Shown: piece by piece, positions 7,850 to 27,981 of the stretch
How positions within the stretch are numbered: position 1 is the first letter of the stretch
Layout of the letters: the number at the start of each line of letters is the position of its first letter
IMG/VR virus record: IMGVR_UViG_3300046787_000693
Coordinates: 1 to 30,047 of that record
DNA length: 30,047 nucleotides
Source of the DNA: a virus
Reading direction: 5' to 3' (one strand)
Position numbers and translations under genes: made by a program
Notes under the pieces: model-generated
Databases searched by the model: none
Told to the model about the DNA's origin: nothing
Seen by the model: the letters and a program-made list of their open reading frames with translations, nothing else

Positions 7850-8695
7850 ATGTCAACATTTGATGCAGTACTTGCACAGTACGAGAAAAACAAAAACGCC
7901 ACAAGTGGCACCGCAAACAAAGTATCCCAAGAGGATAGATTAAAGAAGTATTTCGTAACTTTATTACCAAAAGGTTCTAAAGGAGAAGAAAGACGTATTC
8001 GTATTTTACCAACAAAAGATGGTAGTTCACCATTTGTTGAAGTTTTCTTCCACGAAGTTCAAGTGGATGGTAAATGGGTAAAATTATATGACCCTAAACA
8101 AGAAGGTAGCCGTTCACCGTTACACGAAGTTTACGAAGGATTGATGATGACAGGTGTAGATTCTGATAAAGAATTGGCTCGTCAATATCGTTCACGTAAG
8201 TTCTACATTGTCAAAGTAATTGACCGTGATAACGAACAAGATGGTGTTAAATTTTGGAGATTCAAACATAACCATAAAGGTGATGGGGTAATTGATAAAA
8301 TCTTCCCTATCTTCCGTAACAAAGGTGACGTTACACATCCTGAAACAGGTCGTGATTTGATTCTTTCATTATCATTGACTAAAGCGGGTACGGGTAAAGA
8401 GTACACAGTTATTAATTCAGTATTAAACGATGATGCTAGTCCATTACACGCAGATGCGGACATTGCTAAAACATGGTTAGATGACGAATTAACTTGGTCA
8501 GACGCTTATTCTAAGAAAAGTGTTGATTATTTAGAGTTGGTTGCTCGTGGAGAAGCGCCAAGATGGGATAACGACCAAAAGAAATATGTTTCAACATCTA
8601 CAAGCGATGAAACATTTTCAGCTCCACAAAAGAGTTCAACTCCAACAGTTGACCCACAAGTAGACGAAGAGGTAGACGAAGATTTACCATTTTAA
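7850..8695 (+). CDS. 32: Single-stranded DNA-binding protein, T4 gp32-like (281 aa)
   Basis: It binds ssDNA at the replication fork and during recombination. The core resembles the gp32 OB-fold region: KKYFVTLLPKGSKGEERRIR, PFVEVFFHEVQVDGKW, then YRSRKFYIVKVIDRDNEQ and VKFWRFKHNHKG, rich in aromatic and basic residues. The short N-terminal segment (MSTFDAVLAQYEK) would be the cooperativity region. There is no cysteine anywhere, so the zinc site of T4 gp32 (Cys-His-Cys-Cys) is absent. The C-terminus is a Ser/Thr/Pro linker and an acidic tail ending EEVDEDLPF, which matches the tip of bacterial SSB proteins rather than what I know of T4 gp32. The gene sits between two terminators, so it can be expressed alone and at a high level. 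It is slightly shorter than T4 gp32 (301 aa). Confidence 0.88.
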   Translation: MSTFDAVLAQYEKNKNATSGTANKVSQEDRLKKYFVTLLPKGSKGEERRIRILPTKDGSSPFVEVFFHEVQVDGKWVKLYDPKQEGSRSPLHEVYEGLMMTGVDSDKELARQYRSRKFYIVKVIDRDNEQDGVKFWRFKHNHKGDGVIDKIFPIFRNKGDVTHPETGRDLILSLSLTKAGTGKEYTVINSVLNDDASPLHADADIAKTWLDDELTWSDAYSKKSVDYLELVARGEAPRWDNDQKKYVSTSTSDETFSAPQKSSTPTVDPQVDEEVDEDLPF

Positions 8696-8751: not shown

Positions 8752-9765
8752 ATGGCAGGTATAAAAAAGAATGACTTTTCCGCTTTAAAGAAAAAGTTCT
8801 CTAAAGAAGCCTCTTTCAAAGCCGAAAGATTCTTCGATTTAGGAAACGCTTTCTTAGAAGCAACGGGGTTACCCGGTCCAGCAATGGGACACATAAACAT
8901 GTTACTTGGTCATTCAGATACAGGTAAAACCACAGCTTTAGTGAAAACTGCCGTTGATGCTCAAAAGAAAGGAATTCTTCCTGTCTTTATTATCACGGAA
9001 CAGAAATGGGATTTCCCACACGCTAAATTGATGGGGTTTGAATGTGAACAAGTGGTAGATGAAGAAACAGGAGCAATTGATTGGGATGGTTTTTTCCTTT
9101 TCAACAATAACTTCCAATACATCGAACAAATTACAGATTACATAAACGAATTACTTGACGCACAAGCGAAAGGTGACATACCACACGATATGTTGTTTTT
9201 ATGGGATTCTGTGGGTTCTGTTCCATGTAAAATGACTTTTGATGGTAAAGGTGGTAAACAACATAATGCGTCTGTATTATCGGATAAAATCGGAATGGGT
9301 CTGAATCAACGTATTTCAGGTTCAAGAAGAACTGACAATGATTATACAAACACGTTAGTAATTGTTAATCAACCATGGGTAGAATTACCTGACAATCCAT
9401 TCGGTCAACCAAAAATTAAAGCTAAAGGTGGTGAAGCCATTTGGTTAAACTCAACGTTAGTGTTTTTATTTGGTAATCAGAAAGGTGCGGGAACAACTAA
9501 AATCTCAATCACTAAAGATAAGAGAAAAGTTAAAATCGCAACAAGAACTAAAATCTCAATTATGAAAAACCACGTAAATGGTTTAGGATATGAAGACGGA
9601 CGTATCTTGGTAACATCTCACGGATTTATGCCGGGTAGAGATGATGTTGAAGAGAAAAAATCAATCGAAGACTACAAAAAAATCTCAGGAGATTATATTA
9701 GTGAAAGATTGGGTGTTAGTGTTGCAGACATCGCAGACGTGAAAGTTGTAACAGAAGAAGAGTAA
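8752..9765 (+). CDS. uvsX: RecA-like recombinase, UvsX family (337 aa)
   Basis: An ATP-dependent strand-exchange protein for recombination-dependent replication and repair. Walker A is GHSDTGKT at residues 53-60. The following FIITEQKWDFPHAKLMG (about 79-95) contains the acidic residue expected to activate water. Walker B is MLFLWDSVG at 147-155. The L1/L2 region includes KGGKQHNASVLSDKIGMGLN and NQPWVELPDNPFGQPK, with a KGGEAIW stretch typical of RecA-type proteins. T4 UvsX is about 391 aa, so this version is shorter. The C-terminus is acidic. ATG 8752 follows AAAACAAACAAC with no Shine-Dalgarno sequence. It is the first gene after the gp32-like unit, and its partner at the fork would be the gp32-like protein. 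No UvsY-like mediator was recognised in the window. Confidence 0.9.
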   Translation: MAGIKKNDFSALKKKFSKEASFKAERFFDLGNAFLEATGLPGPAMGHINMLLGHSDTGKTTALVKTAVDAQKKGILPVFIITEQKWDFPHAKLMGFECEQVVDEETGAIDWDGFFLFNNNFQYIEQITDYINELLDAQAKGDIPHDMLFLWDSVGSVPCKMTFDGKGGKQHNASVLSDKIGMGLNQRISGSRRTDNDYTNTLVIVNQPWVELPDNPFGQPKIKAKGGEAIWLNSTLVFLFGNQKGAGTTKISITKDKRKVKIATRTKISIMKNHVNGLGYEDGRILVTSHGFMPGRDDVEEKKSIEDYKKISGDYISERLGVSVADIADVKVVTEEE

Positions 9766-9783: not shown

Positions 9784-10806
9784 ATGCCCGTTTTACTTGT
9801 TGATGGTGACAATTTACTTACGATTGGATTTTATGGTGTAAAGAACTACTTCTATAGGGGTACACACATTGGGGGAATATATCATTTCCTTAACACTCTT
9901 AGAAGGTCATTCGAAACATATCATTTAGATAAGATTGTAGTATTTTGGGACGGTCATGAAGGTTCTCAAACCAGAAGAAAAATTTATTCTCACTACAAAG
10001 AGAATAGGAAACAAAGAATAAGGACCGAAGAAGATTTAAACTCATACAATTACCAAAGAGATAGAGTTAAACAATATCTCGAAGAATTGTTTGTTAGACA
10101 AGGTGAATATGAATACTGTGAAACAGATGACTGTATTGCGTATTATACTCAAATGTCTACCAATGAAAAAATGATAGTTTATTCTTCTGACGGTGACTTA
10201 ACACAACTTGTTTCAGAGACGACACAAATCTACAATCCGTCTCACCAAAAGTTATACAAAAAAAACGATACAATTGTTTATGACCACGAAGATATTTTAA
10301 TAGAAAATGTTAAATTGGTCAAGATGATGTGTGGAGATTCTTCAGATAATATTGCAGGAATAAGAGGGATGGGAGTTAAAAGATTCCTGTCTTTACTTCC
10401 TGAACTAAGAACTGAACCTCTCACCATCCAAAACGTTAAAGACAGATGTAATTTTATATTCGAACAAGATAAGAATAATAAGTTAGTCACAAATCTATTA
10501 ACGGGAGTAACCAAACATGGTGTATTAGGAGAAGAATTTTTCGACGTGAATAATCGAATTGTAAGTTTGGACGAACCGTATTTAACGGATGAGGCAAAAG
10601 AGAACATTAATTTATTAATGAATGAATCATTGGACCCAGAGGGTAGGTCATATAAAAACACAATGAAAATGATGATGGAGGATGGTTTATTTAATGTGTT
10701 ACCAAAATCAGATGACGCATGGATAAAGTTCCTCAACCCCTTCCTCAGATTAACAAGAAAAGAAAAAAATAACAAAAAAACAATCAAAATTAGACAGTAT
10801 GAGTAA
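9784..10806 (+). CDS. rnh: 5'-3' exonuclease / flap endonuclease, T4 RNase H-like (340 aa)
   Basis: A FEN-family nuclease that removes RNA primers and flaps behind the replication fork. The acidic metal-binding residues are visible in order: D7 and D9 (LLVDGDN), D56 (VFWDGHEG), E113, D115 and D116 (CETDDCIA), D136 and D138 (SSDGDLTQL), and D185 and D188 (CGDSSDNIAGIRGMGVKR). The last stretch is followed by the helix-hairpin-helix region that contacts DNA. Length is close to T4 RNase H (305 aa), with a Lys/Arg-rich C-terminus. The start follows a TAATAAAAAAATAA leader 18 bases after uvsX. The 3' end overlaps the next gene by 8 bases, so the two are translationally coupled. Confidence 0.87.
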   Translation: MPVLLVDGDNLLTIGFYGVKNYFYRGTHIGGIYHFLNTLRRSFETYHLDKIVVFWDGHEGSQTRRKIYSHYKENRKQRIRTEEDLNSYNYQRDRVKQYLEELFVRQGEYEYCETDDCIAYYTQMSTNEKMIVYSSDGDLTQLVSETTQIYNPSHQKLYKKNDTIVYDHEDILIENVKLVKMMCGDSSDNIAGIRGMGVKRFLSLLPELRTEPLTIQNVKDRCNFIFEQDKNNKLVTNLLTGVTKHGVLGEEFFDVNNRIVSLDEPYLTDEAKENINLLMNESLDPEGRSYKNTMKMMMEDGLFNVLPKSDDAWIKFLNPFLRLTRKEKNNKKTIKIRQYE

Positions 10807-11248
10807 TCAACAATTAGACATTACGAAATTCGAGTTCCTTTTATCTTTAGACGGTAATATTATTTGCCAAAGATACTTCAATGTAAAAGATCACGTTAGC
10901 CAAGCTAGACGTTCGATGGATTTACACTATTATGTACAAAATATTTGTGACGATATTTCAGAAGATTTGAAAATGAAAAGTTCCAATTATTTGTGTGAAA
11001 ATCAAAACTATTTCCTATCTTCGGAGTTTGTGGAAGATGCCCCTGAAAAGGACAAAGAGCATTTTTTATTGGAAATAAAAATAGGTGAAGAGGTATTTAT
11101 TCAAAGAATATTTCCAGCTTATTGGTACCACCCAAAAGTTAGATATACGGTTGACATCCGACCAAATTTAAAAAGAATTTTATCCGATTTAACAGATATC
11201 TTATCTTCAGAAGATTTGGAAACAACCTATCTACAATACGAACTATAA
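10799..11248 (+). CDS. Unknown protein with two similar halves in the replication operon (149 aa)
   Basis: I do not recognise this protein. Residues about 13-57 and 89-135 look like two copies of one module. Each starts with FLL and a short beta hairpin, continues to a Q-R-x-F motif (CQRYF and IQRIF), then R-x-x-M/V-D-L/I, and ends in a helix with a D-I/L pair (ICDDISEDL and ILSDLTDIL). Between them is an acidic linker. There is no membrane segment. It lies between the RNase H-like and helicase genes and overlaps the former by 8 bases. In T4 the comparable position carries small replication or late-transcription factors (dsbA, 33, 59), so a replisome or transcription accessory role is plausible but is inference from context. 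Confidence 0.65.
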   Translation: MSNQQLDITKFEFLLSLDGNIICQRYFNVKDHVSQARRSMDLHYYVQNICDDISEDLKMKSSNYLCENQNYFLSSEFVEDAPEKDKEHFLLEIKIGEEVFIQRIFPAYWYHPKVRYTVDIRPNLKRILSDLTDILSSEDLETTYLQYEL

Positions 11249-11274: not shown

Positions 11275-12648
11275 ATGGAAGAAAGGAATTTTGGGTATTT
11301 AGGGTTTTCCTTCCAACAGTCGTTGTTAAAGGCGATTGTGGAAGATAAGAAATATGGTGAGACCATCATAGATGTGTTAGAGACGAAGTTTTTCGACAAT
11401 AACTCATTTAGATATATCATGGAAAACATGAAGGAGCTGTACAAAACATATGAGAAAATACCCGATTACAATACACTGGCACAGAAAATCATGGCCGAAG
11501 GTGGTAATCGTGATTCTTCCAGAGTACACATTGATACGTTAGAAACTATCAAGGCGGATGAAAAAGACACAGCATATGTGAAGGACACCGCACTTAATTT
11601 TTGTAAACAACAAAACTTAAAAAGAGAGTTAAAAAATGTTCAAAACATCATTGAAAGTGGTGAGTTCGAAGCATATAATAGAATCGAACAAATTATTCAA
11701 AAGGCATTACAAGTTGGTATCGCTGATGATGAAGGAACGGATGTATTTCATGATGTCGATGGAGCATTAGAAAAAGATTTTAGACATCCACTACCAACAG
11801 GTATTGTAGGTGTTGATAATCTGTTAAAAGGTGGTTTGGGTATCGGTGAGTTAGGTGTAGTTTTAGCACCAACAGGAACAGGAAAAACAACGTTATTAAC
11901 TAAATTTGCCAACACAGCTTACAACTTAGGATATAATGTAGTTCAAATTTTCTTTGAAGATAACCCGGGTAATATCAAGAGAAAACACTACACTATTTGG
12001 TCAGGAATTGCACCGGATGAACAACCTGAATTTGCGGAAGAAGTAAAAGTAAAAATCAGTGAAGCTCAAGAACGTTCAAAAGGTAGTTTAAGATTATTGA
12101 AGTTATCAAGTGATAACGTTACTGTATCTGAAATTAAAAACAAAATCAGAAAGATGAATTCTGACGGTGGAAAAATAGATTTACTAGTATTAGACTACGT
12201 TGACTGTATTTCATCTGATAAAGCGTCTAATGGTGAGGAATGGAAAGGTGAGGGTTCTGTAATGAGAAGTTTAGAATCAATGACCGGAGAATTCGATATT
12301 GCAATTTGGACGGCAACACAAGGTAACCGTGAATCAATTTCATCTGAAGTTGTAACAGGGGACCAAATGGGAGGTTCTATTAAGAAAGCACAAATTGCTC
12401 ACGTAATTTTGTCAATTGGTAAAACATTAGAACAAAAGGAACACAATTTGGCAACTTTAACTTTACTTAAGTCACGTATCGGTAAAGATGGGGTAGTATT
12501 CCAAAACTGTAAATTCAACAATGAGTTTATTGTTATTGATACTGAATCACAAAACACGTTATTAGGTCACGAAGAAAAGAAAGTTGAAAATAACCAAAAC
12601 CGAGCGAGAGAGGCTTTCCTTAAAAGACAAGAATTAGCTAACAGATAA
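11275..12648 (+). CDS. 41: Replicative DNA helicase, gp41/DnaB-like (457 aa)
   Basis: A hexameric 5'-3' fork helicase. The N-terminal helical domain (about 1-150) begins FGYLGFSFQQSLLKAIVED, as in DnaB-type proteins. It is followed by a linker and a RecA-type ATPase domain opening PTGIVGVDNLLKGGLGIGEL. Walker A is APTGTGKTT at residues 198-206. E229 in IFFEDNPG is the likely catalytic glutamate. Walker B is IDLLVLDYVD (301-310). A later IAIWTATQGNRES and a basic LLKSRIGKDG loop fit DnaB motifs 3 and 4. T4 gp41 is 475 aa, a close match. The ATG follows an ACAAATAAAAAAAAATAAAC leader. No primase (gp61) or polymerase (gp43) lies in this window. Confidence 0.92.
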   Translation: MEERNFGYLGFSFQQSLLKAIVEDKKYGETIIDVLETKFFDNNSFRYIMENMKELYKTYEKIPDYNTLAQKIMAEGGNRDSSRVHIDTLETIKADEKDTAYVKDTALNFCKQQNLKRELKNVQNIIESGEFEAYNRIEQIIQKALQVGIADDEGTDVFHDVDGALEKDFRHPLPTGIVGVDNLLKGGLGIGELGVVLAPTGTGKTTLLTKFANTAYNLGYNVVQIFFEDNPGNIKRKHYTIWSGIAPDEQPEFAEEVKVKISEAQERSKGSLRLLKLSSDNVTVSEIKNKIRKMNSDGGKIDLLVLDYVDCISSDKASNGEEWKGEGSVMRSLESMTGEFDIAIWTATQGNRESISSEVVTGDQMGGSIKKAQIAHVILSIGKTLEQKEHNLATLTLLKSRIGKDGVVFQNCKFNNEFIVIDTESQNTLLGHEEKKVENNQNRAREAFLKRQELANR

Positions 12649-12668: not shown

Positions 12669-13640
12669 ATGACTGAAAAGATTTTAATGGACAACCCGGG
12701 TAGGTTCGTCTTGTTTCCAATTGAACACCACGACTTGTGGAAATTATATAAACAACAAGAAGCTTGTTTTTGGACAGCTGAAGAAATTGACTTAGGTCAA
12801 GATCTTACAGATTGGGAGAACAAACTAAATGAGGATGAAAAACATTTCGTTAAACACGTATTAGCGTTCTTCGCGGCATCTGACGGTATCGTAAATGAGA
12901 ATTTGGCAATGAATTTTGTCAATGAAGTACAATACACTGAAGCGAAATTCTTCTATTCATTTCAAATGATGATGGAGAACATTCACAGTGAAACTTATTC
13001 TCTTCTTATCGACACGTACATTAAAGATAAAGAAGACCAAAATAACTTATTCAATGCAATTGAAACAATTCCTGCAATTAAAAAGAAAGCGGATTGGGCG
13101 ATTAAGTGGATTGAATCAGATTCTTTTGCTGAACGTTTAATTGCGTTTGCTGCAGTTGAAGGTATCTTTTTCTCAGGTTCTTTTTGTTCTATCTTTTGGT
13201 TGAAAAAACGTGGTTTAATGCCAGGTTTAACATTCTCAAATGAACTCATCTCTCGAGATGAGGGAATGCACTGTGACTTCGCTTGTCACTTATTCAATGA
13301 ACACATTGAGAAGAAAGTAAGTGAGAAGAAAATTAAAGAAATTATTTGTGGAGCATTAGAAATTGAAAAAGAATTTATTTTAGAGGCGTTACCGGTTCGA
13401 TTAATTGGAATGAATTCGGATTTAATGGCTCAATATCTTGAATTCGTAACCGATAGATTATTAATGGCGTTGGGTTGTTCTAAAGTTTACAACTCAGAAA
13501 ACCCTTTTGATTTTATGCAAAATATTGCATTACAAGGTAAAACTAACTTCTTCGAGAAGAGAGTAGCTGAGTATCAAAAAGCGGGAGTTAATAATGTTGC
13601 TGAAGATTTAGATTCAGCGTTTGGGGAGGTTGATTTTTAA
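12669..13640 (+). CDS. nrdB: Class Ia ribonucleotide reductase small subunit NrdB, eukaryote-like (323 aa)
   Basis: It houses the di-iron centre and tyrosyl radical used by NrdA to reduce ribonucleotides. Aligned by eye to mouse R2, the ligands are D72 ([12 protein letters not shown]), E103 and H106 with radical Tyr110 (ENIHSETY), E164 ([12 protein letters not shown]), and E198 and H201 (RDEGMHCDF), with spacings matching mouse D139/E170/H173/Y177/E233/E267/H270 apart from a two-residue shift. Long stretches such as [20 protein letters not shown] are nearly identical to animal R2 proteins, so this belongs to the eukaryote-like subclass that Bacteroidota also carry, unlike T4 NrdB. The C-terminal SAFGEVDF is the expected NrdA-docking tail. 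Length is complete apart from the eukaryotic N-terminal extension. nrdA follows after 13 bases, giving a B-A order. No intron interrupts it. Confidence 0.95.
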
Positions 13641-13653
13641 TAAATAAACAAAT

Positions 13654-16071
13654 ATGAAAGTAAAAAAAAGAAGTGGTTCCTTAGAGGAAATGAGATACGA
13701 TAAAATCACAAGAAGAATTAGTGTTTTTTGTGATGATTTAAATTTAGAATTTATTGACCCAACATACGTTACCCTGAAAGTTACTCAGGGTATCTATGAT
13801 GGAATTACAACAACAGAGTTAGATGTGTTAGCGGCCGAAACTGCGGCGTCGATGGTTACTACACATCCCGACTACGCAAAATTAGCGGGTAGATTAGCGG
13901 TTTCTAATTTACATAAAACAACACCAAAGAAGTTTTCACAATCGATAAAAGAGTTACATTCATTCATCGAACCGAAAACAGGAAAAGAGTCGTCATTAAT
14001 CGATACTGACATTTACCATTTTGTTATGGCAAATAAAGAAGTGATTGACGGAGCAATCCAACAAGAAAGAGATTTAGAGTTTGATTACTTCGGTATTAAA
14101 ACATTAGAACGTTCTTACCTATTAAAAATTGGTAACCGTATTGTTGAAAGACCACAATATCTTTATATGAGAGTTGCCGTTGGTATTTGTAAGGGTGACG
14201 TTGAAATGGCATTGAAAATCTATAATGATTTATCAGAACATTTTTATACACACGCAACACCGACATTATTTAATGCGGGAACCAAAAGACCACAAATGTC
14301 TTCATGTTTCTTAATTGGAAACAAAGGTGACGATATTGACGGTTTATTTGAAACTTTAGGTGATGTGGCAAAGATTTCTAAGTGGGCAGGAGGAATCGGA
14401 CTACACGTACATGATGTAAGAGCTAAAGGTTCTTATATTAAAGGGACAGGTGGAGAATCTGACGGTTTATTACCAATGATGAAAACTTATAATGAAGTAG
14501 CTCGTTGGATTAACCAAGGTGGTAAACGTAAAGGTTCATTTGCCGTTTATCTTGAACCATGGCACGCTGACATTTACGAATTTATTGATTTGAGAAAAAA
14601 TCACGGTAAAGAAGAAATGAGAGCAAGAGATTTATTCTTGGCAATGTGGACACCTGATTTATTCATGGAACGTGTTGAACAAGATGGTGATTGGACATTA
14701 TTCTCACCTGATGAGGCACCGGGGTTATCTGACACTTATGACACACCTGAAGACAAAGCATTCACAAGATTATATGAATCATATGAACAACAAGGTTTAG
14801 GAAGAAAAGTAGTTAAAGCGAGAAAATTAATGGATGCGATATTAACCGCACAAATTGAAACGGGAACACCTTATATGTTATATAAAGATCCGGCAAACTA
14901 CAAATCAAATCAAAAGAATTTGGGTACGATTAAATCTTCTAACTTATGTACGGAGATTATTGAGTATTCATCACCAACAGAACAGGCGGTTTGTAATTTG
15001 GCATCTATTGCATTACCAAAATATATCGTTGATGGAGTGTTTAATCATGAATTATTATACGAAAGAACTTACCAAGTGGTAAAGAACTTAAATAACGTAA
15101 TTGATTTAAACTTCTACCCAACTGAAGAAACAAAACGTTCAAACTTTAAACATAGACCAGTTGGTTTAGGTATTCAAGGTTTGGCAGATATTTTCTGTAT
15201 TTTAGGTTTACCATTCGAAAGTGAAGAGGCAGATAAATTACAAACTGAAATTTTTGAAACAATTTATTTCGCGGCTTTAACATCTTCAAAAGATTTGGCT
15301 AAAGAGTTCGGACCATACGAATCAATTGTGGGTTCACCAATTGAAAAAGGAATCTTCCAATTTCAAATGTGGAATAAAACAGATAAAGATTTATCAGGAA
15401 GATGGGATTGGAAATCATTAAGAAAAGAAGTGATTACCAACGGTGTTAGAAACTCTTTATTAGTTGCACCGATGCCAACAGCGTCAACGGCACAAATACT
15501 GGGAAATAATGAAGCCTTTGAACCGTTTACAACAAATCTTTATTCAAGAAGAACGTTGAGTGGTGAATTCATTATGATTAACAAACACTTAGTTAACGAC
15601 TTACTTAAATTGGGTATGTGGAATGACGATATTAAAAAGAAACTAATTATGGACAATGGTTCAGTTCAAAATATCCCTGAAATCCCAACTCAATTAAAAG
15701 AAGTATATAAAACGGTTTGGGAAATGTCACAAAAAAGAATTCTACAAATGGCAGCAAATCGTAGTATTTTTATTGACCAATCTCAATCATTAAATTTATT
15801 TATTGATAATGTGACTAAACCTAAATTATTGGCGGCACATTTATTCGGATGGAAATTAGGATTAAAAACAGGTATGTATTACTTAAGAACTCGTTCAGCG
15901 GTAGACGCACTTAAAGGTTTAGGTATCGACATGTCATCGAGTAAAACTGTTGAACAACCGGTAACGACACCTTCTAATAATCCAATTATAAGTGAAAACA
16001 CTCCCGAATTGGGAATGACAAATGAAAGACCAACAGATTCTCCATTTGAATGTGAGGGTTGTGGATCATAA
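13654..16071 (+). CDS. nrdA: Class Ia ribonucleotide reductase large subunit NrdA, eukaryote-like (805 aa)
   Basis: The catalytic subunit that makes deoxyribonucleoside diphosphates. Residues about 1-90 form an intact ATP-cone (KVKKRSGSLEEMRYDKI), so overall activity could be allosterically controlled. The specificity site and barrel follow. Active-site residues are visible: C218 (MSSCFLIG) and C447 (VCNLAS) as the redox pair, and N430, C432 and E434 (SSNLCTEI). Radical-transfer tyrosines are Y742-Y743 (TGMYYLRTRSA). The mobile C-terminal tail ends FECEGCGS, with C800 and C803 for re-reduction. C432-C447 spacing and order match mouse R1 C429-C444. Full length, no intein. It is the last gene of the replication block and is followed by a strong terminator. 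No thioredoxin or glutaredoxin gene is seen nearby, so a host reductant is presumably used. Confidence 0.95.
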   Translation: MKVKKRSGSLEEMRYDKITRRISVFCDDLNLEFIDPTYVTLKVTQGIYDGITTTELDVLAAETAASMVTTHPDYAKLAGRLAVSNLHKTTPKKFSQSIKELHSFIEPKTGKESSLIDTDIYHFVMANKEVIDGAIQQERDLEFDYFGIKTLERSYLLKIGNRIVERPQYLYMRVAVGICKGDVEMALKIYNDLSEHFYTHATPTLFNAGTKRPQMSSCFLIGNKGDDIDGLFETLGDVAKISKWAGGIGLHVHDVRAKGSYIKGTGGESDGLLPMMKTYNEVARWINQGGKRKGSFAVYLEPWHADIYEFIDLRKNHGKEEMRARDLFLAMWTPDLFMERVEQDGDWTLFSPDEAPGLSDTYDTPEDKAFTRLYESYEQQGLGRKVVKARKLMDAILTAQIETGTPYMLYKDPANYKSNQKNLGTIKSSNLCTEIIEYSSPTEQAVCNLASIALPKYIVDGVFNHELLYERTYQVVKNLNNVIDLNFYPTEETKRSNFKHRPVGLGIQGLADIFCILGLPFESEEADKLQTEIFETIYFAALTSSKDLAKEFGPYESIVGSPIEKGIFQFQMWNKTDKDLSGRWDWKSLRKEVITNGVRNSLLVAPMPTASTAQILGNNEAFEPFTTNLYSRRTLSGEFIMINKHLVNDLLKLGMWNDDIKKKLIMDNGSVQNIPEIPTQLKEVYKTVWEMSQKRILQMAANRSIFIDQSQSLNLFIDNVTKPKLLAAHLFGWKLGLKTGMYYLRTRSAVDALKGLGIDMSSSKTVEQPVTTPSNNPIISENTPELGMTNERPTDSPFECEGCGS

Positions 16072-25434: not shown

Positions 25435-27981
25435 GTGAAAAAAATAAGATATAACATAAAGCGAAAACACATACCTAATGTCAAGTTAGTTTCATTAACT
25501 GGCATGACTTGGTACGACGCGGAAGATAATCTTATTTCTTGGGACGATACCATTAATACGTCACCTAACACCGGTACAACAATTTTTAATATTTCAGGAG
25601 GTACAGTTCCTTCAGGTTATTATATATGGGGAACACCTACAGGTAGCACGTGGAATGAAGTAACTGGAGACACGTCTACAATTAATTCACAAATTTACGA
25701 CGACTACCAACTTCCACTTTATTTGGAATCTTCAGTTGATGAGTACGGTCCAATGGTTGATTTTGATGGTAATATAGCTTACGATATAACTCCTGTTGCG
25801 GTTAATTTCGTATATGAAATAGATTGTAATGAAGTTACAATTACAGGTACAACAAATGTTAGTTCATTAAATAATATAGGTGATATTATATTCACGGTAC
25901 ATTGGGGAGATGGTGAAACCGACCCAATTAGTGCGAATGGTGTTGCTAGTCATTTCTACGCCACAAATGGACCAAAAACAATTAAAGTAACGTTAGATGC
26001 TCCATGGATAAATGAACAGGTAATTAAGACTGTAGTAATCGATTGTATCACATTCGTAACAAAAACACCTACACCTACACCTACAAAAACACCAACGGCA
26101 ACCCCAACAAATACACCTACAAATACTGTCACACCAAGTGTTACTGCGTCGGTAACGCCAACAATAACTGTAACACCATCAGTAACACCGACAACTTCGG
26201 TAACTCCAACAATTACAAATACACCAAGTGTTACAAATACTGTAACACCAACAGTATCTGTTACACCATCTGTTACACCAACAGAAACACCGGCATTATC
26301 GGCAACTCCAACACCAACAGTTACACGTACACAAACACCTACACCGTCAGTAACTGCAACTCAGACCCCAACACCGTCTGTTACTGCAACAAACACACCA
26401 ACGCCAACAGAAACGCCAACTCAAACGCCTACGAATACAGTGACTCCTACGGAGACACCAACTCAAACGCCAACAAGTTCAGTTACACCAACTCAAACGC
26501 CAACACCAACAGTTACAAATACACCTACAAATACGGTTACCCCATCAGTAACTGCAACTCAAACGCCTACTCAGACACCAACAGAAACGCCAACACAAAC
26601 ACCAACTAACACACCAACGCCAACAGAAACGCCAACCCAAACACCTACTAATACACCTACAGCAACTGTAACTCCGACTGTAACTCCGACTGTTACACCA
26701 ACAGAAACACCAACTAACACACCGACACCATCGGTGACGGCTACTGTTACGCCAACGGTTACACCTAGTCATACAGCAACTCAAACACCTACTCAGACAC
26801 CGACACCATCGGTGACTGCAACTCAAACGCCAACTCAAACGCCAACAGAAACACCAACTCAAACACCTACAGCAACTGTGACTCCTACGGAGACACCAAC
26901 AAATACGCCTACAAATACACCAACAAGTACAGTTACACCATCTGTAACGGCAAGTCAAACGCCAACAGAAACACCAACTCAAACACCTACGAATACAGTG
27001 ACTCCTACGGAGACGCCAACTCAAACGCCAACAGAAACCCCAACAAATACGCCAACAAATACCGTTACCCCATCGGTGACTGCAACTCAAACGCCAACTC
27101 AAACACCTACAAATACGGTTACCCCATCAGTAACTGCAACTCAAACGCCAACAGAAACGCCAACCCAAACACCTACGAATACCGTTACACCATCTGTAAC
27201 ACCAACAGAAACGCCTACACAAACACCAACAGAAACACCTACTCAGACGCCAACACCGTCAGTAACTGCAACTGTTACACCAACTGTTACACCAACAAAT
27301 ACACCTACAAATACGGTTACACCATCGATAACACCAACAAATACAGTAACACCAACGCCAACAGTAACGCCAACTCCAACATCAGTACCGTTATGTGTGT
27401 CTTTAGTTACTGCAACCGAAATATATGACCCATTCAATGTAAATGTGAATTTTGTAATTAATAAACAAAATTCATTAGCAAGTGGTCATGTTTTTGACGG
27501 AATATATACGGGAACAACATTAAATAAAACATATGCTATTAACAGTAATGTAAGTGTAACAGGAGTGACCACAAATAGTTCAACATTTGTTGGATGGAGT
27601 TTAACACCAAGTGGTGAAAACGTTTTCCAAACTGAAAGTGTATTATCCTTTGTTGCTAACCACGATGAAACATATTATGCGATAATTGATAAAACAGGTG
27701 TGGTAAGTAGACAATTCTGTTACTACCCAATTGGAACTGACATGAACGATATTTGTTTAACCTGTCCGACAACAGTCACTGTTTATTATGACGAAACAAG
27801 TTATAACACGAATGGATTTGAAAATTCAACATGGTATACTGACGAGTCGTTAAGTACTACAGCCACTAATGGGTATTATAAAGATATGACAGTAAGTGTA
27901 CCAATAATTTATGGTCTTAGTACGGGTATTTCATCAACATATGGAACATGTGGTGATGGATTTATTTATTGTACTGTTTAA
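25435..27981 (+). CDS. Adhesin-like tail protein with PKD-like domain and giant Thr-Pro stalk (848 aa)
   Basis: Three regions are visible. Residues 1-210 include a beta-rich N-terminal part and a PKD-like domain at about 130-206, with the hallmark [10 protein letters not shown] around residues 155-164 and later [10 protein letters not shown]. Residues 211-649 are an uninterrupted Thr-Pro repeat of 439 residues, probably an extended, unfolded stalk. Residues 650-848 are a C-terminal beta-rich domain with several cysteines ([20 protein letters not shown], ending [10 protein letters not shown]). The start is GTG 25435; an in-frame stop at 25429-25431 rules out an earlier one, and the first in-frame ATG is residue 24, so a shorter form is possible. 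PKD domains and long stalks are typical of surface-binding proteins, so a receptor-binding or adhesion role is plausible. No signal peptide is seen, consistent with a virion protein. Confidence 0.7.
26065..27381 (+). repeat. Long imperfect Thr-Pro coding repeat (439 residues)
   Basis: About 1.3 kb of three-base-phased ACN/CCN repeats encode T-P-T-x-T-P units, where x is mainly E, Q, N, V, S or A. Higher-order blocks recur, for example [14 protein letters not shown] around 26530, 27058 and 27115. Synonymous third positions vary between copies (ACA, ACG, ACT). The + strand is very poor in G, so the - strand is G/T-rich. Confidence 0.93.

Follow-up and report, generated by a model that had tools for sequence, protein, structure and literature searches.

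We describe a large lineage of uncultured phages whose gp32-type single-stranded DNA (ssDNA)-binding protein ends in an invariant Leu-Pro-Phe (LPF), the ending that Bacteroidota SSB proteins have in their partner-docking tip. Our analysis leads us to propose, with moderate confidence, that this tail end is an SSB-Ct docking tip and that it most likely binds partners of the host SSB, for instance RecO, PriA, RecQ or RecG. Judging from its fold and gene context, the protein itself would coat ssDNA in the phage's own replication and recombination.

The window, by which we mean the whole stretch of DNA analysed, is an IMG/VR virus record of 30,047 bp, and an open reading frame on its plus strand (7850–8695) encodes the 281-amino-acid protein at issue. 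This protein and the segments of its tail are located as follows:

7850..8695, + strand: gp32-type ssDNA-binding protein, recognized by Pfam, PHROGs, the AlphaFold2 core and Foldseek
8600..8650, + strand: variable disordered linker (aa 251–267), of low conservation and with indels between relatives
8651..8659, + strand: D-P-Q box in the tail (aa 268–270), about eight residues before the tip
8675..8692, + strand: SSB-Ct-like tip DEDLPF (aa 276–281), with LPF in 157/157 of the distinct genes listed

The original prediction held that the fold reads as gp32, that the zinc cysteines are lacking and that the acidic tail closes in an SSB-type EDLPF, and all three points are borne out. The Pfam gp32 profile (PF08804) matches residues 47–226 (3.6e-14; 53.7 bits against a cut-off of 26.8), and the PHROGs matches are to phrog_1192 and phrog_224, both phage ssDNA-binding proteins. 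An AlphaFold2 model made from an input alignment of 26 relatives is confident over much of the core (pLDDT mostly 80–90) and disordered in the tail, and its best Foldseek matches are the gp32 cores of RB69 (2a1k, 2.8e-9) and T4 (1gpc, 2.1e-8), with target TM scores of 0.62–0.63. The zinc site of T4 gp32 consists of His64, Cys77, Cys87 and Cys90; our protein has no cysteine at all and hence no site of this type. Because the gp32 proteins of P-SSM2, HTVC008M and immuto are also without it, the zinc site is not needed for membership of the family. Translation of the reading frame gives the C-terminus DPQVDEEVDEDLPF, and bases 8666–8695 hold its last nine codons (EEVDEDLPF, residues 273–281) and the TAA stop. 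The SSB OB-fold profile (PF00436) has no match anywhere in the 30,047-bp window and none in eight related contigs of 80–212 kb, and it found its control matches in 10 genomes, so the gp32 is the only SSB-type protein seen there. Among GenBank phages, the best matches to it are of cyanophage type at about 28% identity, with no named cultured relative, and no integrated relative was found in the genome collection searched.

The strongest evidence that the tip matters comes from its conservation. Relatives were gathered by scanning IMG/VR with the window protein and then with progressively more distant members, each scan having at least 600 matches, of which the best 80 stretches were obtained; members more distant still lie beyond this sample. 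With a complete C-terminus, the scans gave at least 295 loci, at least 157 distinct genes and at least 141 distinct full proteins. Among the matches listed, the complete relatives in the LPF lineage are 58–100% identical to the window protein, and every one of them has the D/E/N-L-P-F end that had been predicted to be conserved among gp32 relatives. Close relatives with unrelated C-termini, named beforehand as the outcome that would tell against the idea, were not seen; such ends occur only in clades about 21–23% identical. The lineage consensus is D-x-(D/E/N)-L-P-F. In the 157 distinct genes listed, the last three residues never change, while their codons vary synonymously (six for Leu, four for Pro and two for Phe); position −4 is D in 127, E in 19 and N in 11, and position −5 is free (E, G, D, S, T or A). 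An LPF fixed amid synonymous codon change, a free position −5 and a shifting linker points to constraint at the protein level on these three residues. LPF occurs at about 2e-4 per residue within the lineage's proteins, at which rate a single C-terminus ending this way could be luck; invariance across 157 genes through synonymous change rules chance out.

The tip has the sequence features of an SSB-Ct: a terminal Phe and penultimate Pro, an aliphatic residue at −3 (Leu in 157/157) and acidic residues upstream. It also hangs, as an SSB-Ct does, from a disordered and poorly conserved linker. Residues 251–279 have pLDDT <50 in the AlphaFold2 model, and in an alignment of 141 proteins the column conservation of the linker is 0.22 versus 0.82 for the core, with many gaps in the linker. 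Near the end of this tail, the D-P-Q box is nearly as invariant as LPF (Q in 141/141, D in 140/141 and P in 129/141) and is absent from the Bacteroidota SSB tails inspected. Having no counterpart in the host tails examined, the box indicates that the phage tail is not a plain copy of theirs, and it is possibly a second docking site.

This pattern of constraint bears on two simpler accounts of the tail. One is that it serves only as an autoregulatory acidic flap competing with ssDNA for the gp32 cleft, its LPF end recruiting nothing. T4 gp32 and T7 gp2.5 have acidic regions for which such a role has been proposed, and both proteins gain DNA affinity when the acidic tail is removed (PMC5686142), and the acidic residues ~273–301 of T4 gp32 have been assigned to ssDNA-binding functions, not recruitment (PMC11551737). 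Charge alone, however, would not fix L-P-F while the adjacent positions vary among D, E, G, S, A and N, and we regard this account as improbable. The other, to which we give hardly any weight, is that the LPF end is a degradation tag through which host ClpXP limits gp32. A C-terminal LPF is indeed enough to bring about ClpXP-dependent degradation in some strains of Streptococcus mutans, but it goes unrecognised in several strains of that species, as in Escherichia coli and S. gordonii (PMC5143411); moreover, a tag would leave the conserved acidic context unexplained, and a phage has little to gain from degrading its essential ssDNA coat.

The LPF end is also confined to one part of the gp32 family. 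In a maximum-likelihood tree of 49 gp32 sequences with the last 45 residues removed, the clades nearest to the LPF lineage are the immuto-like and Mel-JY01-like proteins, which have a highly conserved C-terminal motif of their own, F-(D/N/S)-x-L-F-N. All 79 immuto-like proteins tallied with a complete end finish in FD(D/E)LF followed by N, K or S, and none of 77 Mel-JY01-like proteins ends in PF, the ends inspected being FDxLFN-like. T4 and other straboviruses, cyanophages, pelagiphages, ackermannviruses and Campylobacter phages have gp32 ends of other kinds; that of T4 is DDTDLDDLLNDL, with no PF. The strabovirus gp32 proteins of Aeromonas phage avDM12 and Enterobacter phage EBPL contain DDDDVPF and NTPPF, internally and not at the C-terminus. 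Every LPF sequence in the tree falls on one side of a single branch (support 100/100), so that one change is needed; with 2.46 changes per column this is a long branch, and the deep joins are uncertain, whereas the LPF grouping is firm. As read from these sequences, the LPF tip is a lineage-specific replacement of the gp32 tail end that arose once.

Downstream of gp32, the window continues with the following genes:

8752..9765, + strand: RecA/UvsX-like recombinase, a candidate phage-encoded partner (phrog_97, UvsX-like, 1.7e-10)
9784..10806, + strand: 5'-3' exonuclease (Pfam 5_3_exonuc_N, 3.2e-27)
10799..11248, + strand: conserved 149-aa protein with no family match, between the exonuclease gene and dnaB
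11275..12648, + strand: DnaB-type replicative helicase (phrog_19, 3.7e-59; Pfam DnaB_C)
12669..13640, + strand: NrdB, ribonucleotide reductase beta subunit, from its position and homology to immuto NrdB
13654..16071, + strand: NrdA, ribonucleotide reductase alpha subunit, from matches to phage NrdA

The RecA/UvsX-like gene lies directly downstream of gp32 and always adjoins it in the loci checked. In nearly all long related loci, the genes for gp32, RecA, the exonuclease, the 149-aa protein and DnaB are contiguous, and the gene order of the window, through to NrdB and NrdA, is preserved. The 149-aa gene is itself present in nearly all of these loci and has no counterpart in immuto; the AlphaFold2 model of its product (pLDDT 53) is too poor for a fold search. 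The lineage's own enzymes include a family B polymerase, a DnaG-type primase, DnaB helicase, RecA, SbcC/SbcD-like proteins and the 5'-3' exonuclease. With the family B polymerase found in 6/7 large related contigs, we rejected reliance on the host DNA polymerase as a reason for the tip. Profiles for the helicase loader gp59 and the mediator UvsY had no match in 10 records and were likewise silent in control genomes.

Other features were recorded in passing. A second PF-ended phage protein, PcfJ-like and 642 aa long (L158, 16768–18696, contig G002), ends in AEPLPF; only a single other genome, 97% identical, shares it, the more distant relative in contig G009 ends in DIEF, and its ending may be a coincidence. 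Contig G002, a related contig of 212 kb, also has genes (within L158–L169) for a sigma factor, for numerous enzymes that modify sugars and for a protein bearing the helix-turn-helix domain of the DnaA C-terminus. In the window, an 848-aa open reading frame (25435–27981) carries a long low-complexity tract of PTxTPT repeats.

The host of the lineage is probably a member of the Bacteroidota, a reading based on NrdA kinship, on gene order like that of the Flavobacterium phage immuto and on the lack of Shine-Dalgarno motifs. The nearest phage matches to NrdA infect Tenacibaculum and Cellulophaga, and the protein is 56% identical to Algoriphagus NrdA; a Shine-Dalgarno motif precedes 0 of 16 window genes, as is usual for Bacteroidota. 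The SSB proteins of this phylum do share the phage D-L-P-F end, as the original prediction had anticipated: in 33 SSBs from 31 genomes, the best-scoring matches of a 61-genome draw, the end is DLPF in 31, ELPF in one and GLPF in one. This end is not unique to Bacteroidota, as SsbA of Streptococcus mutans ends in DDDLPF (PMC5143411). The match therefore fits the inferred host and supports mimicry of a bacterial tip, without identifying the host.

How might such a tip work? When an SSB-Ct docks, its last Phe sits in a pocket, with the carboxylate of this residue at a basic lip and the Asp residues along a basic ridge; the pocket needs this Phe, the Pro before it and acidic residues, and deleting the Phe abolishes binding (PMC10164576). 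As these features are all matched at a free C-terminus, we infer that gp32-coated ssDNA can recruit proteins bearing an SSB-Ct pocket. If the phage tip behaves like an SSB-Ct, its Phe side chain would enter the hydrophobic pocket, with the free carboxylate paired to the basic lip and the preceding Asp/Glu residues resting on the basic ridge; to SSB-interacting proteins, gp32-coated phage ssDNA would then resemble SSB-coated DNA. At the stem of the lineage, the gp32 tail tip would have been replaced by a copy of the bacterial one, whether converged upon or acquired. The likeliest partners would be host-encoded, such as RecO (a recombination mediator), PriA (a restart helicase), RecQ or RecG. 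The phage could in this way enlist host factors for fork repair and recombinase loading to work on its own DNA, or else vie with host SSB for them. Given that it makes its own polymerase, primase, SbcC/SbcD-like proteins, helicase and RecA, the gain is likelier to lie in repair, restart and recombinase loading than in basic synthesis.

The same gene set feeds the most serious alternative, in which the protein docked by the LPF tip is made by the phage itself. Candidates include the RecA/UvsX homologue encoded next to gp32, the 149-aa protein, the primase and the helicase; the tip would then resemble the host SSB-Ct because the pockets are similar, and host proteins would not be used. The contiguity of gp32 with recA, the exonuclease gene, the 149-aa gene and dnaB speaks for such a partner, as do precedents in other phages: HK620 SSB, which ends in NDYPPF, needs those residues to load the phage protein Sak4, a RecA relative (PMC5928155), and the gp32 tail of T4 likewise has phage-encoded binding partners (PMC3012046, PMC11551737). 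The HK620 precedent of a PF-ended tail loading a phage protein and the extra DPQ box count against host partners, and so do the lineage's own replication enzymes, which lessen its dependence on those of the host. The neighbouring clades can be read both ways. That they keep a different invariant tip (FDxLFN) beside the same neighbours favors an internal partner; yet their RecA, exonuclease and DnaB are homologous to those next to the LPF tip, so the tip is not required by these proteins as such. Nor would a purely internal interaction predict that Bacteroidota SSBs hold constant exactly the same three residues as the phage tip. We consider a phage-encoded partner unlikely, although well short of negligible.

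Docking of host SSB partners by the tip can be extended into a fuller scenario, which we offer more tentatively, as a fair candidate and not as the expected answer. The whole lineage would have swapped the phage-internal FDxLFN code of the gp32 tail for the host SSB docking code in one event, the host SSB interactome would service phage ssDNA and DPQ would be a second, phage-specific dock. If true, this swap would be the exchange of a protein-recruitment code on an unrelated ssDNA-binding fold.

Compared with known systems, the lineage protein shares with gp32 of T4 and RB69 its family, its core fold and a disordered acidic tail after the core. It differs from T4 gp32 in having no zinc cysteines and in carrying an SSB-Ct-like motif at the very end. 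The contrast with T4 first drawn for this protein stands: T4 gp32 uses a helix within its tail (residues 248–270), and not its last residues, to bring in Dda (PMC11551737). Taken as a whole, however, the T4 tail region does recruit phage partners (PMC3012046). Among other phages, immuto has the same order of gp32, recA, exo, dnaB, nrdB and nrdA (without the 149-aa gene), and Microcystis phage Mel-JY01 shares gp32, recA, a gene in the exonuclease position and the helicase. Immuto-like phages have a family A DNA polymerase, whereas most LPF-lineage contigs have one of family B.

Bacterial SSB tips (...DDDIPF in E. coli, ...DDLPF in Bacteroidota) resemble the phage tip in the terminal Phe, the penultimate Pro, the acidic residues and the disordered linker, and those of Bacteroidota also in Leu at −3. 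The phage tip, however, sits on a gp32 OB fold and not on a PF00436 SSB, with a free position −5 and an added DPQ. E. coli-type phage SSBs with PF tips are already known. HK620 SSB is one such parallel, in that its PF-type tip is essential if a second protein is to be loaded; it differs in being an E. coli-type SSB whose demonstrated partner, Sak4, is phage-encoded (PMC5928155). For an SSB-Ct tip on a gp32-type protein, we found no report among openly licensed papers. Phage ssDNA-binding proteins are reported triggers of the defence systems Hna, AbpAB, Hachiman, Nhi and Retron-Eco8 (PMC13381803, PMC10732053), and, speculatively, a host-like tip may also alter recognition by such systems. The SSB tip is a central docking code of bacterial DNA repair, and a lineage that carries it on an unrelated fold offers a natural test both of the portability of the tip and of which host repair factors a phage needs.
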